A stretch of 64,000 nt of DNA from Alphaproteobacteria bacterium (GTDB lineage: Bacteria; Pseudomonadota; Alphaproteobacteria; GCA-2731375), in the NCBI GenBank assembly GCA_016776605.1, contig JADHTB010000016.1, forward strand, positions 1 to 64,000, in the 5' to 3' direction. This document shows positions 3,491 through 50,572 of this stretch, in pieces. Positions within the stretch are counted from its first letter, which is position 1. Each line of letters starts with the position of its first letter. The translations under genes and the position numbers were made by a program. Under the pieces are notes generated by a model. It was not told where the DNA came from and made no database searches. It was given only the letters and a program-made list of their open reading frames with translations.

Positions 3491-6400
3491 TCAAGAGGGC
3501 TTGATCGAAGCAAGCATGGCATCAATGGCCGGCAGGGCAGTCAACTTACCCATTTGTTTCGCCCGGTCCTGTATTTGGCGCAGGTCATCGACGGTGGTTT
3601 GGTCATATTGACCGCGCCCAATCGCTGCCAGCAACCGTCCCCTGGAAATAACGAAATCGCATACGGGTATGGGCTCCGGCGCCCAATATGCCTCCATGGC
3701 AGCCGCGTAACGATCCGCCTCGTCCCAGCCACCTCGGCGCAGGGATGCTTCTATGGCATACTCGTAAAAATCCAGATAGTTGTGACTAACCGCACCCGCG
3801 CGCAACAAACACTCCCCTTCCGCCAGCGCTTGGCCGGCGCATTCGGCATCATCGGTCAGCAAGGCCAAAATGCCCAGACAGGTTGGTCCCATGAAGGCCA
3901 TGCCTGCCTCCCGTGCCAAGGCGATTGCCGACCTAATCTCCAGTTCCGCCTCGGCGCGGCGCCCCTGCACCAACAGCGCGCGGGCCAGAAGCCCTTTCGC
4001 ATCACAGGAAAACAACTTGGCGCCGATATGTTGGCTGGCTTCGAACATCTCCACAGCCAAGCTTTCCGCACGGACGCCGTCACCCGCCTCGATATCAAAT
4101 TGCGCTGCGACGCCCTTGGCAACCGCGAAGGCACGTTGATCGCCGATCGCGAGAGACATATTTATGGCCGCGGCAACATCTCTGGACCCGGCCTCGGGCT
4201 TGGCAAGATACAGGTTGATGACGCCCCGCATGATCAGGTTAGAGGCCTCGATTGCCGCCAAGCCGTGGCGACCGGCAACCTCTATACAACGGTCAAAAAA
4301 CTTATATGCGGTCTGCATTCGCCCATCCATGTACCAGGCGTCACCAAGACCGCTCAACGCCCGTGCCTCAGCCTCTGGCGAAACCGCCTGCTTGGCATAT
4401 TCCAGCGCTTGACCGTGTTCCGACAGGCAGCGTTCAAAATCCCCCATGGAAAAATAGATGCCACCCCGCAAGTAGTGAATGCGTGCCAGGGCCTCCCTGC
4501 TGTCCAACCTCTGCGCCACTACCTCGGCACGCTCCAGCGCAGCCAAGCCTTCATCGCGGCGATCAATGATGCGCAGGCCCTCGGCCAAGCCAGTATTGAC
4601 GCGGCAAATTTGCCTGTCGGTAGTAGCTGCGACCTGGGCCAGTCGAAAAGCTGAAATTGATCGTTCCGTCTGCCCCAACTCGCGCAGCAAATCGCCCTGG
4701 AAACAGGTTAGATTGAAATGAACCTCCGCCGGGCAATCCAGTTCCAGCGCCCGGTCAACTAGCCGCAAGGCAACGTCGTTGCGAAAGGCGTCATGTTGCC
4801 GCTGCGCCGCAGTGAGATAGGCCGCCGCCGCGCCAGGAACTTTACCCGCATCCAGATGCGCGGCATGTAAGGAAGGATCAAATTCCTTGAAATAACCGGC
4901 GGCGCGTATGTGCAGTTCAACCCTTTGGTCTGACAGCAAGGATCCGTAAACCCCATCGCGGATTAGGGCATGGGCAAAGTAATAGTCGTTGCCAGCCGGT
5001 CGGATCAGTGCCTGCGCCAACAATATATCCGGCCGGTAATCATCGTAACGCAACAGCACCGCTAGAGCGGCGCCAGAAAATCTCTGGCCCAGGACCGACG
5101 CCGCCTGCAGGGCCGCTTTGTCCCTGGGTGGCAGCGCATCCAGCCGCGCCTGTATTATGCCCTGCAAGGTTCCCGGCACCTCGCCGCCCTGCAATTCGTC
5201 CGCATTGCGCAGCAATTGTTCCAGGAACAACGGGTTGCCCCCGGCCCGTTCGATACAAGTGTCAACCAGGACTTGGTCCAGGCCGGCAAAGGTGCGCGCC
5301 AAATCCAAAGCTTCGGATTTTTCCATAGCGCCCAGGTCAATGGAGCTCACCGGCGTCCCATCAGCATCGGCGCGCCAGTTCGCGTCCAGGGGATCGGCGG
5401 CAAGCCGGGTCGTCAACACCAGGATAGCGCGGCAATCCCCAACCACCTTTGCCAGCAGCGCCACACGGCTTAGGACGACCGGGTCGGCCCAATGTAGATC
5501 CTCTATCTTCAACAATAACGGTGTCTGTTGACTCAACGAACGCACCAGCGCGGTAACGGTCTCTCGCTTACCCTTGTTGCGGGTGTCGTTGTCCATGGCA
5601 TCGTAAAGGCCTCGCAAGGCAGGGGGCTGCTCCAAATCCAGCAAATCGTTCAGATAGACCCGCTGATCCGGCGGCAAAAGGCCTGCGGACACGGCGTCGT
5701 TTGCGGCTTTCGTCCGCTCTGCCTTGCCGCCACCCGGACTGATCTCCAGCAAGCTGCGCACAAACGAACTCACGGCATCCTGGCCCTTCCCAATACCAAA
5801 ATCCAGGACCAAACCCGTATGACAGCGAAAGCCCTGTTCGGACGCCACGCGTTCGAATTCTGCCAACAGCCGGGTTTTGCCAATCCCCGCCTCGCCGCGC
5901 ACCACAAGGGTTTCGCCCACGTCATGGCTCAGACAATGGCGCACCGCCCCTTCAAAGCGGTGGAGCTCCCGCTGACGGCCGACAAAAGGGTGCAGTGCTC
6001 CAGCGTGGGGTTTCCGCAGCCCGCGCAGACGCCAAACCGTCACGGGTTCCAGCAAACCTGCGATCGGCCGCTCCCCCAGGCAGTCCCCTTCGAATTGCTC
6101 ACCCAGGGAACGTTGCACCGATGCCGATACCAATGTCTCTCCAGCCTGGGCCAAATCTGTCAACCGCGCGGCCAAGTTCACGCTGTCGCCGGTTATCGTA
6201 TATTCCGCATAGGCCGCGCTGCCAGTAGTGGAGGCCACCACCTGGCCAGCAGCAACGCCGATGTGGACCTCTATCGGCGGCTCTAGACCCAAGACCCCCT
6301 CGTGAATATCGCCGGCGGCACGCATGGCCCGCTCCGGGTCGTTGGTGTGGGCAACGGGCGCGCCAAACACCGCCATGACGGCGTCACCGATATGCTTATC

Positions 6401-14840: not shown

Positions 14841-15221
14841 ATGGCGGTGACCAAGGCACACAAAGAATTTTTCCCGGTTGATTTCGGGGACGGCTGGGAA
14901 GTCCCGGCGGGATACCCGGACGGGATCCAGCAAAAGATTTTAGCCGGTTCGCTGGATGAAGAGAATAATCGCGGCAGCCGGACCCGCCTGCTGCGCTTTC
15001 AGCCCGGCGTCTATACTACCGAACCCTTTGTCCATGAACATTGGGAGGAGGTCTATCTGGTCTCCGGCGATCTGACGGTCGGCAATGACGCCAACGGCAT
15101 GGGCGGCGAAGCTTTCGCGGCCAACACCTATGCCTGCCGCCCGCCCGGCGCGCCCCACGGCCCATTCAAATCAGAAAATGGCTGCGTGCTGTTCGAGATT
15201 CACTATTACGACCCCGCCTAG
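14841..15221 (+). CDS. Cupin domain protein (ChrR / dihydroxyacetophenone dioxygenase-like)
   Basis: A 126-residue single-domain cupin. The metal motif HEHWEEVYLVSG (HxHxxE) and the later PPGAPHGPF give the usual three His and one Glu. Such proteins are metal-dependent dioxygenases, isomerases or sensors. It ends the aldehyde dehydrogenase-monooxygenase operon. Its TAG stop is the first triplet of the large palindromic repeat that follows. Confidence 0.8.
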   Translation: MAVTKAHKEFFPVDFGDGWEVPAGYPDGIQQKILAGSLDEENNRGSRTRLLRFQPGVYTTEPFVHEHWEEVYLVSGDLTVGNDANGMGGEAFAANTYACRPPGAPHGPFKSENGCVLFEIHYYDPA

Positions 15222-15483
15222 AGCATTTCCGGGATATTCTGAACCATTTGACCGCTCACCAAGGCCCCGTGGGTAGGCGCGGTTTGCAGGTCGATGTGGC
15301 GCATCGTCCAAGAACCGCAACGCAGCCACGGGGCCTTGGTGAGCGGCCTTCGGTGGCGCCCCTAAGCCATTCTGGTGCGTTGCGCCGCTTGCCCGATGCG
15401 CCACATCACGCTGCGCAACGCGCCTACCCGAATGGCTTAGGGGCACCATCAAATGGACCAGAATATCCCGGAAATGCTCTAGG
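15217..15483. repeat. Complete palindromic repeat element, copy A (263 bp plus flanks)
   Basis: A long imperfect palindrome with 25-bp perfect inverted ends (15217-15241 and 15459-15483), bounded by TAGAGC and GCTCTA. Inside, a 19-bp perfect hairpin stem (15254-15272 with 15326-15344) is followed by a second hairpin (stems about 15356-15375 and 15427-15445). The 36-base segments 15271-15306 and 15394-15429 are near-complementary, so the whole element can fold on itself. It codes for nothing and sits between convergent genes. The TA ends resemble a non-autonomous element using TA targets. Confidence 0.88.
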
Positions 15484-19164: not shown

Positions 19165-20159
19165 TGACACGCCTGGGCATTGCCGTCTCCGGCGGCCCCA
19201 ATCCATCGGAAATTGTCGATCTCGTCACGCTGGCGGAATCGCTTGGCTATGAATCCGCCTGGGTGGCGGAAGGGCACGGGGGCGATCAATTCTCTGTTCT
19301 GACCGGTTGCGCCATGCGGACGTCGAGCATCCAGTTGGGTACCGCCATCTCCAGCGTCTATGTGCGCTCTATCCCGACCATCGCCATGGCCGCGGCCACG
19401 GTGGACGATTTGTCGAACGGGCGGTTTATCCTCGGCCTCGGCTCCTCCCACAAGGTTCAAGTGGTGCCCGAACATGGCGTTGAATATGCCAAACCCATTA
19501 CCCGCCTGCGCGAGAGCGTGGAGATCATCCGTATGCTGTTACAGACCGGGCAGGCCCAGTTTGATGGCGAAACGTTGAAAATTGAGAATTTTGATCTGTG
19601 GTTCACGCCCCGCCGTCCGGACATCCCCATCTACGCCGCGGCCGTATTTCCCAAAATGATGGCGGTCTGCGGTGAAATTGCCGATGGCATTATTCTGACC
19701 CGCAGCACCTTGAAGACGGGCGCCGAGGTTAAGGCGCGCCTGGCCGAGGGCGCCAAGATTGCGGGCCGCGATCCCAGTAGCATTGCCATCACCTCGCTGT
19801 TACCCACTGCCGTGGCGGATAACCGCCAGGACGCCCTGGCCGTGATGCGGCCGGGTCTGGCCTTCTATGCCGGCTTCTTTCCCCGCTATAATCAATTGAT
19901 CGCGGCGCATGGCTTCGCCGAGGAAGCCGCCGCCATCGCCACGGCATGGGCCAAGGGTGACCGTGCCGGCGCGGAACGCTTGGTCAGCGACGCCATGATC
20001 GATGCCACATCTATTGTTGGTACGCCGGAGCAATGCCGTGAACGGCTGGAGGCTTATCGCCAATCGGGCATTGATCTACCGATCATCAGCCCCTTCGCCC
20101 GCGGCGCCAACGCCAAGGCCACTTTCGAAGCCGCCATCAGAGCCTGCGCGCCTACCTAG
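19164..20159 (+). CDS. LLM-class F420/flavin-dependent oxidoreductase
   Basis: A 331-residue bacterial-luciferase-like TIM barrel, of the type called methylene-tetrahydromethanopterin reductase-like. RLGIAVSGG..., FILGLGSSHKVQVVPEHG and TPEQCRERLEAYRQSGID are family segments. Such enzymes are FMN monooxygenases or F420 enzymes. It shares the base A of TAATG with the upstream gene and is surely co-expressed. The TAG stop is the first triplet of a palindromic repeat. Confidence 0.86.
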   Translation: MTRLGIAVSGGPNPSEIVDLVTLAESLGYESAWVAEGHGGDQFSVLTGCAMRTSSIQLGTAISSVYVRSIPTIAMAAATVDDLSNGRFILGLGSSHKVQVVPEHGVEYAKPITRLRESVEIIRMLLQTGQAQFDGETLKIENFDLWFTPRRPDIPIYAAAVFPKMMAVCGEIADGIILTRSTLKTGAEVKARLAEGAKIAGRDPSSIAITSLLPTAVADNRQDALAVMRPGLAFYAGFFPRYNQLIAAHGFAEEAAAIATAWAKGDRAGAERLVSDAMIDATSIVGTPEQCRERLEAYRQSGIDLPIISPFARGANAKATFEAAIRACAPT

Positions 20160-20256
20160 AGCATTTGAAAAAATGCGCCCGGACTCTTAAAAATAGAGCG
20201 ATTGAACCAATCACTTAAGTCGCGATAGCAACCCTAATTAATTAAATATTGCTCTA
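20157..20256. repeat. Composite two-hairpin palindromic repeat (TAGAGC family), degenerate copy
   Basis: It begins TAGAGCATTTG and ends TTGCTCTA. A small hairpin (AGAGCATTT with AAATGC) is followed by CGGACTCTTAAAAATAGAGC and a decayed version of the 60-bp hairpin module seen at 20652-20713. Similar composites lie at 28886-28987 and 50445-50547. Its first triplet is the stop codon of the LLM gene. Confidence 0.8.
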
Positions 20257-20342
20257 ATAGTAGCGATATTGTGATCGGATGAACTGTAAAAATACCCCAT
20301 AATTAGCATCCGATGGATTTTTTTAACATGGAGGGCGAATAG

Positions 20343-20654
20343 ATGATCAAGGTCAGTGTGCTTTACGCAAACGAAAGCGGTAAGAGTTTCGATATGGATT
20401 ATTATTGCAACAGCCACATTCCAATGGTGTTAGAGAAAGTGGGCGCGGCCTGTAGCAAAGCAGAGGTGGATCAAGGCCTGGCCGGCGGCGCGCCTGACGC
20501 GCCCGCTGCGTATATCGCCATGGGCCATCTATATTTTGATTCCGTGGAAAGCTTTCAAACTGCCTTTGGCCCTCATGCCGAGGCTATCATGGCGGATGTC
20601 CCCAATTACACGGATATCCAGCCAAACATTCAAATCAGCGAAGTGAAAAGTTAG
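20343..20654 (+). CDS. EthD domain-containing protein
   Basis: A 103-residue dimeric alpha/beta-barrel protein of the EthD family (MIKVSVLYANESGKSFDMDY, HIPMVLEKVG, FGPHAEAIMADVPNYTDIQP). The family occurs beside cytochrome P450 and monooxygenase systems, where its exact role is unknown; many members handle reactive intermediates. GGAGG lies seven bases before the start. It may act with the upstream oxidoreductases, though it has its own leader of about 180 bp. Its stop is formed by the following repeat. Confidence 0.82.
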   Translation: MIKVSVLYANESGKSFDMDYYCNSHIPMVLEKVGAACSKAEVDQGLAGGAPDAPAAYIAMGHLYFDSVESFQTAFGPHAEAIMADVPNYTDIQPNIQISEVKS

Positions 20655-20713
20655 AGCAATTCCGAGTTATTGAGAATCGCGAAGCGATTCTAAGTGATCG
20701 GAAAATTGCTCTA
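20652..20713. repeat. Short palindromic repeat (62 bp) supplying both stop codons of convergent genes
   Basis: A hairpin with ends TAGAGCAATT and AATTGCTCTA and an inner stem GAATCGC-GAA-GCGATTC. The first triplet is the stop of the EthD gene (20652-20654); read on the other strand, the last triplet is the stop of the lipoprotein gene (20711-20713). It could act as a bidirectional terminator. Confidence 0.85.
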
Positions 20714-21910: not shown

Positions 21911-22135
21911 TTAGCCTGAGGTCCTTAATACCCTGGCCACGCCGGTGACCGTTTAGTCAGTCAATTTTATTCATAGTCGATTCGTCTACAAGGATACAGG
22001 CAATTCCGCATTATTTATGCAAAAAACTGCAACCCCGCCGTATCGCATAGAAACAACCGACCCTGAATACCGTATTTTACCGGCTGATCCTTTACAATTA
22101 GTGAGCGCGGCGGAGATTAACCAATGCCCGGAGAC
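21911..22135. other. Non-coding AT-rich spacer upstream of the lipoprotein gene
   Basis: 225 bases without a supported gene, lower in GC than the surroundings. It should carry the promoter of the lipoprotein gene, but I see no clear -35/-10 pair. The palindromic repeat copy B follows. Confidence 0.5.
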
Positions 22136-22310
22136 TAGAGCCGTTCCGGGTTATTCTGAACTATTTGACCGCTCACCAGGGCCCCGTGGGTAGGCCGGTT
22201 TGCAGGCCGGGTGCATCGTCCAGGAACCGCAACGCAGCCATGGGTCTTGGTGAGCGGCCTTCGGTGGCGCCCCTAAGCCATTCGGGTGCGTTGCGCCGCT
22301 TGCCCGATGT
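22136..22310. repeat. Palindromic repeat element, truncated copy B
   Basis: About 175 bp matching the left two thirds of copy A, from TAGAGC through the first hairpin and the GGCCTTCGGTGGCGCCCC linker to GCTTGCCCGATGT. Similarity stops there, in the loop of the second hairpin. Copy C breaks off at the same place. It lies between the lipoprotein gene and tRNA-Arg. Confidence 0.83.
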
Positions 22311-22385
22311 TAGACAAGTAATGTCCGCGCATCACCTTGCGAATGCCCGGTAAAAGAAAAATGCCGTCGCCTGACCGCATGGCGC

Positions 22386-28885: not shown

Positions 28886-28987
28886 AGAGCACATTCAAAG
28901 AAAATGCGCTCGGACTCTTAAATATAGAGCAATTGAACCAATCACTTAGAATCGCTTCGCGATTCTCATTAATTCGGAATTGCTCTA
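28886..28987. repeat. Composite two-hairpin palindromic repeat
   Basis: It has a small hairpin (AGAGCACATTC/GAAAATGCGCT-like), the linker CGGACTCTTAAATATAGAGC and the 60-bp hairpin with AGAATCGCTTCGCGATTCT. It ends AATTGCTCTA. It lies in the leader of the BON lipoprotein gene, downstream of yraN. Confidence 0.85.
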
Positions 28988-29001
28988 TCTGCCGCAGCAT
29001 A

Positions 29002-32793: not shown

Positions 32794-32845
32794 GGTACGA
32801 GACTATCTTTTATGGTTATGAACCGATAGCTGGACGGTAATAGTT

Positions 32846-33026
32846 TAGAGCGGTTCCGGGCTATTCTGAACCATTTGACCGCTCACCAAGGCCCCGTGGA
32901 TAGGCGTGGTTTGCAGGTCGATGTGGTGCATCGTCCAAGAACCGCAACGCAGCCACGAGGCATTGGTGAGCGGCCTTCGGTGGCGCTCCCAAGCCATTCG
33001 GGTGCGTTGCGCCGCTTGCCCGATGT
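32846..33026. repeat. Palindromic repeat element, truncated copy C
   Basis: About 180 bp matching copy A from TAGAGCGGTTCCGGG to TTGCCCGATGT, with scattered substitutions (for example GATAGGCGTGG for GGTAGGCGCGG). It ends at the same base as copy B. It lies between the convergent FkbM and GT-C genes. Confidence 0.83.
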
Positions 33027-33077
33027 ACCATTTACAATTCCGGCGTCACAGGTTCCACATCGCGGCGTCATGCGGCG

Positions 33078-50444: not shown

Positions 50445-50547
50445 TAGAGCATTTTCATTCTGAAAATGCTCAGATCTTTAGAATTAGAGCAATTTTTCCA
50501 ATCACTTAGAATCGCTTCGCGATTCTCATTAATTCGGAATTGCTCTA
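50445..50547. repeat. Composite two-hairpin palindromic repeat
   Basis: A small hairpin, AGAGCATTTTC-5-GAAAATGCTC, is joined to the 60-bp module (AGAGCAATTT to AATTGCTCTA with AGAATCGCTTCGCGATTCT). It ends 25 bases before the start codon of the next gene, so it forms its 5' leader. Confidence 0.87.
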
Positions 50548-50572
50548 ACAGCACTCACACAGGAGATTACCA

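Follow-up and report, generated by a model that had tools for sequence, protein, structure and literature searches.

Truncated copies of a palindromic, MITE-like repeat that end in the tip loop of its second hairpin

Copies A, B and C in the window

In the 64,000-nt stretch of alphaproteobacterial DNA analysed here (the window), three copies of one palindromic repeat, A, B and C, were compared; all of their features are given on the plus strand. Copy A (15218..15482) is a complete element of 265 bp, it reads C-TAGAGC...GCTCTA-G and contains two hairpins inside complementary ends. The first hairpin (H1) spans 15252..15346 (alignment columns 6-103), with its tip loop at 15297-15301 (consensus positions 80-84). 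The second hairpin (H2) spans 15353..15449 (alignment columns 112-214); its tip loop is five bases in length and located at 15399-15403 (consensus positions 182-186). The columns of H1, H2 and the H2 tip loop were converted by hand. As a single strand, intact copy A has a folding energy of -203.4 kcal/mol (z -17.2). The TAG of copy A itself (15219-15221) is the stop codon that terminates ORF 14841-15221. One copy elsewhere in the same draft genome (G000:C16:45435) also sits on a TAG stop codon, and TAG is present at the C16 target in the congener G007.

Copies B (22135..22310) and C (32845..33030) are right-truncated; each contains the left end, H1 and the 5' half of H2. In a gapped alignment of 181 columns, B is 91% identical to A and 90% identical to C, with E values of 1.2e-63 or lower, far above chance. 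Folded together with its flanks, copy B is unremarkable (z -1.66).

According to the original prediction, B and C break off at the same internal base, in the loop of the second hairpin. GCTTGCCCGATGT is exact at 22298-22310 in B and at 33014-33026 in C; at this site (15387-15399), copy A has one mismatch and reads GATGC. Compared to A, both B and C agree only up to GATG (consensus position 181). Compared to another full copy (G000:C8:14414-14453), C matches at 40 of 40 bases and the agreement extends to 33030 (GATGTACCA, position 186), the earliest end for C being after GATG (33025). The end of B stays at 22310 (position 182), one base past GATG, even when a full copy other than A is used. The two ends look equal against A because A carries GATGC; they are in fact 4 bases apart, on the two sides of the five-base H2 tip loop. 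The placement in the loop was thus borne out, whereas the identity of the two end points holds only against A; as a whole, the shared breakpoint was partly confirmed.

End points of truncated copies across genomes

Using a 267-nt query, we obtained 88 matches in the 4.6-Mb, 44-contig genome (G000). After removal of strand overlaps, these include 16 complete copies, of which two lie against contig ends, 6 copies that have internal deletions and retain both ends, and 11 partial copies at contig ends; true one-ended copies are also present. All 16 complete copies start with TAGAGC and end with GCTCTA in the alignment, forming terminal inverted repeats. By hand count, the base before the left TA is a pyrimidine (15 C, 1 T) and the base after the right TA is a purine (10 G, 6 A) in every one of them, which gives YTAR surroundings for 16/16 copies.

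The terminus pattern, with up to 1 mismatch allowed, has 130 matches versus 0 for the reversed control; about 100 of the termini were examined, and the other ~30 only where they lay inside fetched DNA. Of those examined, many are solo ends beyond which the DNA is unique, some form end-to-end palindromes of 33-34 bp, and others are members of a ~105-bp family. The latter is a second palindromic repeat family with the common terminus TAGAGCAATTCCG; in the window it is located at 20650-20705, 28886-28992 and 50446-50552 and, in weaker form, at 20155-20261 (termini at 20652, 28987 and 50547), with further copies elsewhere in the genome.

Some copies lack one hairpin and have recurring borders: in C31:26952 and C38:25599, positions 1-153 are joined to 229-265, and in C20:35669 positions 1-34 are joined to 137-264. 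Two others, G000:C14:74896-75058 and C32:85941-86103, are hybrids in which the H1 and H2 arms are recombined, as if by template switching. Thirteen draft contigs (C5, C7, C8, C11, C14, C15, C17, C18, C19, C28, C30, C39 and C41) begin or end inside or at the repeat, often at repeat positions 127 or 139. Since contigs break inside the repeat, assembly breaks mimic truncated copies. The end counts leave out the 11 contig-end partials of G000 and the contig-end copies of G002, G003, G007, G009, G010 and G011, the six internally deleted copies that retain both ends, two relatives whose ends are different (C43:28494 and C32:101511), C18:32726 (33 nt), C32:263273 (43 nt, fused to a different repeat), solo ends of less than ~33 nt, and seven copies that are composite or otherwise cut (L174, L185, L186, L193, L206, L289 and L309; the ends of L289 and L309 lie near 200).

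Eight left-intact truncations of at least 33 nt were counted in G000; they end near 33, 33, 38, 38, 39, 58, 182 and 186, the two ends at 33 (C35:12145 and C2:99858) being read by eye where BLAST extends to 39 and 37. Seven right-intact truncations keep ~37-67 nt; they were not part of the simulations below, and C12:36792, C2:271507 and C22:8724 among them are left/right hybrids. In other genomes, left-intact copies away from contig ends stop at 40, 63, 65, 73, 81, 106 and 184. The end at 184 belongs to a congener copy on C136 of G002 (L179) and was read by hand against full G002 copies, as GATGTCC followed by other sequence; the aligner stopped at 181. The end at 81 belongs to a copy on C52 of G011 (L188), it lies inside the H1 tip loop, with CTCTAG from the right end immediately after it. 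Three copies therefore end within the five-base H2 loop (B at 182, L179 at 184, C at 186) and one, L188, in the H1 loop. Among core-word matches in 47 uncut windows, all of which have H2 up to GATG, none was seen by eye to end in the loop.

The original prediction itself named scattered end points as evidence against it, and scattered is how the genomic copies plot. Such scatter is what ordinary decay by independent random deletions would give, with B and C ending close to each other by coincidence; in simulation, two random ends fall within 4 nt of each other 4% of the time. With uniform ends, some 5-nt window holds 2 of 8 ends in 72% of the runs and 3 of 15 in 38%. For ends in either tip loop, 2 of 8 gives P 0.05 and 4 of 15 gives P 0.004, the loops having been chosen after B and C were seen and the 4 of 15 including L188, whose last six bases are kept. 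The tip-loop excess is thus a suggestive lead and not significant as a cluster: the preferred cleavage at the hairpin loop that had been proposed receives a hint from the ends at 184 and 81 in other genomes, but not from the clustering. The loop-ended copy of another species, L179, also weighs against decay alone.

The similar end points of B and C had also been taken to suggest a distinct half-element, copied as such in its shortened state. If gaps at the cut end are disregarded, B and C have one non-consensus base in common, which is also found in 6/16 full copies; B differs alone in 14 columns and C in 7. They are 91.4% identical to each other, and each is 94% identical to a full copy. In the tree, B and C lie close together, with C14_96534 also nearby, at weak support (0.68-0.69), a placement that leaves their closeness neither proven nor excluded. 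Since B and C have no private shared bases, there is no sign of a moving half-element lineage, and on this comparison it was rejected; the matches in this genome include just two copies of this kind. With nothing but the similar end points in its favour, the lineage is largely refuted and highly improbable. B and C are separate copies, each without the 3' half of H2 and the right end.

The insertion site of copy B and the origin of the truncations

The flanks of copy B are found without the insert in the congeners G002, G007, G008, G010, G005 and G003. By hand reading, the site here is GGAGAC-TA-[GAGCC...GATGT]-TA-GACAAG, and that of G002 is GGAGCC-CG-GACAAG, of equal length; in the other five, the near flanks are less alike and there are spacer indels further out. 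Hand-read from this empty-site alignment, the left TA is at 22136..22137 and the right TA at 22311..22312, followed by GACAAG as in the relatives without B. TA is not seen at that spot in G002 or G007, and the target TA is deduced from the duplication itself. The empty-site comparison thus gives a TA target site duplication at copy B, one truncated copy only. Because B is bordered by a TA dinucleotide on each side and none of the flank is missing, the odd right end of B is the insertion boundary: either a half-copy was inserted, or the loss stopped exactly at that boundary. No microhomology was seen at the junction. No orthologous flank was found beside C in 10 congeners, and L179 has no empty site in 10 genomes.

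Nine truncated or solo copies were compared with G002 and G007 for their flanks. At C16:45435, both flanks are joined in G007 and the net difference of 37 nt is the length of the remnant, with no net flank loss; a 14-nt weakly similar stretch in the right flank limits the precision of this boundary to about two bases. In G002 the site is occupied by other DNA. In both relatives ~3.57 kb separates the flanks of C2:191757, for which a deletion in this genome is the simplest explanation. Homology to the relatives is lost at the element for C23:18739, C2:271553 and C35:40689; C31:105453 matches on the terminus side only and C22:8724 on one side, C4:10269 has no match in G002 or G007, and at the short solo end C1:270025 the relatives have intergenic DNA of other sequence rather than an empty site. 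Outside these nine, the flanks of L170 and L200 are not contiguous in the relatives searched. Since loss of flank or synteny is common among the other truncated copies, B stands out most clearly as an exception.

In its behaviour the repeat resembles a TA-targeting MITE. It has terminal inverted repeats and, at B, a target site duplication; duplication of a TA target, as in IS630/Tc1-mariner-type elements, is likewise seen at B. IS5/IS427-type elements have a YTAR target, the surroundings found at 16/16 complete copies. No transposase partner was recognised within 1.34 Mb of retrieved sequence, some of it overlapping; between matching ends lie two ORFs of at least 180 aa (L095 and L216), neither of them transposase-like by eye. 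Taken together, YTAR around the complete copies and the TA duplication at B make transposition of the repeat by a TA-targeting enzyme likely.

The explanation that we favour, tentatively, is that A, B and C are MITE-like copies, and that B and C each lost the right part from the H2 tip, B up to the transposase-cut edge. All three would be copies of a non-autonomous, transposase-less element that inserts at YTAR and duplicates TA. The loss would have started at the exposed H2 tip, where an extruded hairpin may have been cleaved or a polymerase may have left its template. In B it would have stopped at the right edge cut by the transposase, for example if refilling of an excision gap proceeded from the left, reached no further than the hairpin tip and was followed by joining to the right flank. 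A number of the other truncated copies look like plain deletions or rearrangements that extend beyond the element. At least one deletion from near a tip to near the edge has occurred, in L188 of G011. For C, the tip position is the sole evidence on mechanism.

Ordinary decay is a real possibility for the same copies, and chance is possible at B: its exact boundary would be luck, or a deletion would have kept the last right-end bases, which then eroded. The internal deletion of L188 that retains CTCTAG is close to the state of B, and the 3.57-kb separation at C2:191757 and the homology losses at C23:18739, C2:271553 and C35:40689 are of the kind that decay leaves behind. Decay has more difficulty with the retained flank of B and its end at the target TA, and with C16:45435, which is also without net flank loss. 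The original interpretation finds partial support; in favour of its claim that the truncations are not random decay, one solid observation can be cited, the coincidence of the cut end of B with the insertion boundary, which the sequence alone could not have revealed.

At B, a serious rival is that a half-copy was inserted directly by way of a substitute end. The true left end would have been paired with an internal substitute end, GATG(T) by TA, so that a half-element was inserted and TA duplicated. TA-[GAGCC...GATGT]-TA in an otherwise unchanged site is what such single-ended transposition would leave, and C has GATG-TA-CC at the same point. The ends of B and C would nevertheless be one base apart, or four if C extends to 33030; a search of 10 congeners gave no empty site for C, and most other truncated ends have no TA at the cut by eye. 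IS801 belongs to a different transposon class. One-ended transposition is documented for IS801, but the same work ascribes most genomic fragments to likely reorganization (PMC3189936). As an account of the truncations in general, we consider single-ended transposition unlikely.

The TA boundary of B means that a truncated copy can arise without flank damage, and since the flank is undamaged, the two processes of truncation and transposition may be coupled. As an observation, the shared breakpoint is modest; the wider family is of more interest.

The wider core family and its relation to known repeats

At least 96 stretches of GTDB genomes carry the core word GCGTTGCGCSGCTTGCCCGATG. The 80 matches listed are from Alphaproteobacteria, Hyphomicrobiales, Rhizobiaceae and Roseibium, some being labelled only Proteobacteria. 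One viral contig (L348, IMG/VR, 5692-5712) has the core word in a one-base-shorter form. The ends vary between copies (TAGAGC, ATACCAA, CTAGACC) and are, by eye, largely self-complementary within a copy.

To describe the fold, 24 cores were aligned: the window core, 21 loci and 2 typed cores. The 21 loci were picked by the exact word plus motifs at both core ends, columns that are conserved by construction; near-identical sequences (over 93%) and those failing the motif and length filter were excluded first, and L290 and L301 were then dropped from the 24 cores of that selection. Across the 24 cores, 94.1% of the cells pair and 44 of 64 pairs are changed on both sides (compensatory), mainly in helices 1-3 and 5 (35/44). 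The covariation score is 0.482, versus 0.167 in shuffles and at most 0.119 with the partners slid. Judged from this covariation, the predicted fold of the family is kept by compensatory change across genera while sequence and ends change.

Over pairs predicted from both strands, there are 89 G-U and 51 A-C cells; by hand sums, H1 has 65 versus 13 and H2 has 24 versus 38. The minus strand folds better in 15/24 sequences. Together, these counts and the strand folding give no decision on RNA versus DNA or on which strand carries the selected fold. In the window and seven loci, Rfam gave no repeat match at the gathering score, only tRNA; nine sub-threshold hits at copy A are to eight microRNA precursors and one norovirus 3'UTR. 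With a fold that appears maintained and no Rfam match in the copies scanned, this family of short mobile repeats is a good test case. One could imagine the double-hairpin core as a conserved folded module, RNA or ssDNA, that travels between different TA-inserting termini in Alphaproteobacteria, its H2 tip being usable as a substitute transposon end and so giving TA-bounded half-copies like B; we regard this as a long shot.

Judged from titles and abstract starts, no description of this element was found in the literature. By description, it may be likened to the palindromic, mosaic repeats of Rhizobiaceae known as RIME (Rhizobium-specific intergenic mosaic elements). RUP, BOX, MITEPsy1 and Bru-RS also appear similar in kind. 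Bru-RS of Brucella are palindromic alphaproteobacterial repeats of 103-105 bp that are able to fold (PMC2267715); palindromic nature, ability to fold and alphaproteobacterial host are the likeness, drawn from description only. MITEPsy1 of Pseudomonas syringae is small and without coding sequence, it targets CTAG or YTAA and is tentatively related to IS5; different from the repeat described here, at which TA is duplicated at B, it is 100 nt in length with a reported 4-nt duplication and other ends, the two being likened by description (PMC3189936). RUP and BOX of Streptococcus pneumoniae are small interspersed repeats with complementary ends, target duplications and predicted secondary structure, and on all four points our repeat is like them by description. 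The ends of RUP resemble those of IS630-Spn1, and BOX is modular, with lone modules found (PMC3049150). Set beside these two, which belong to another phylum, the modules here are two hairpins between TA-flanked ends, with a core that carries different ends in several genera.
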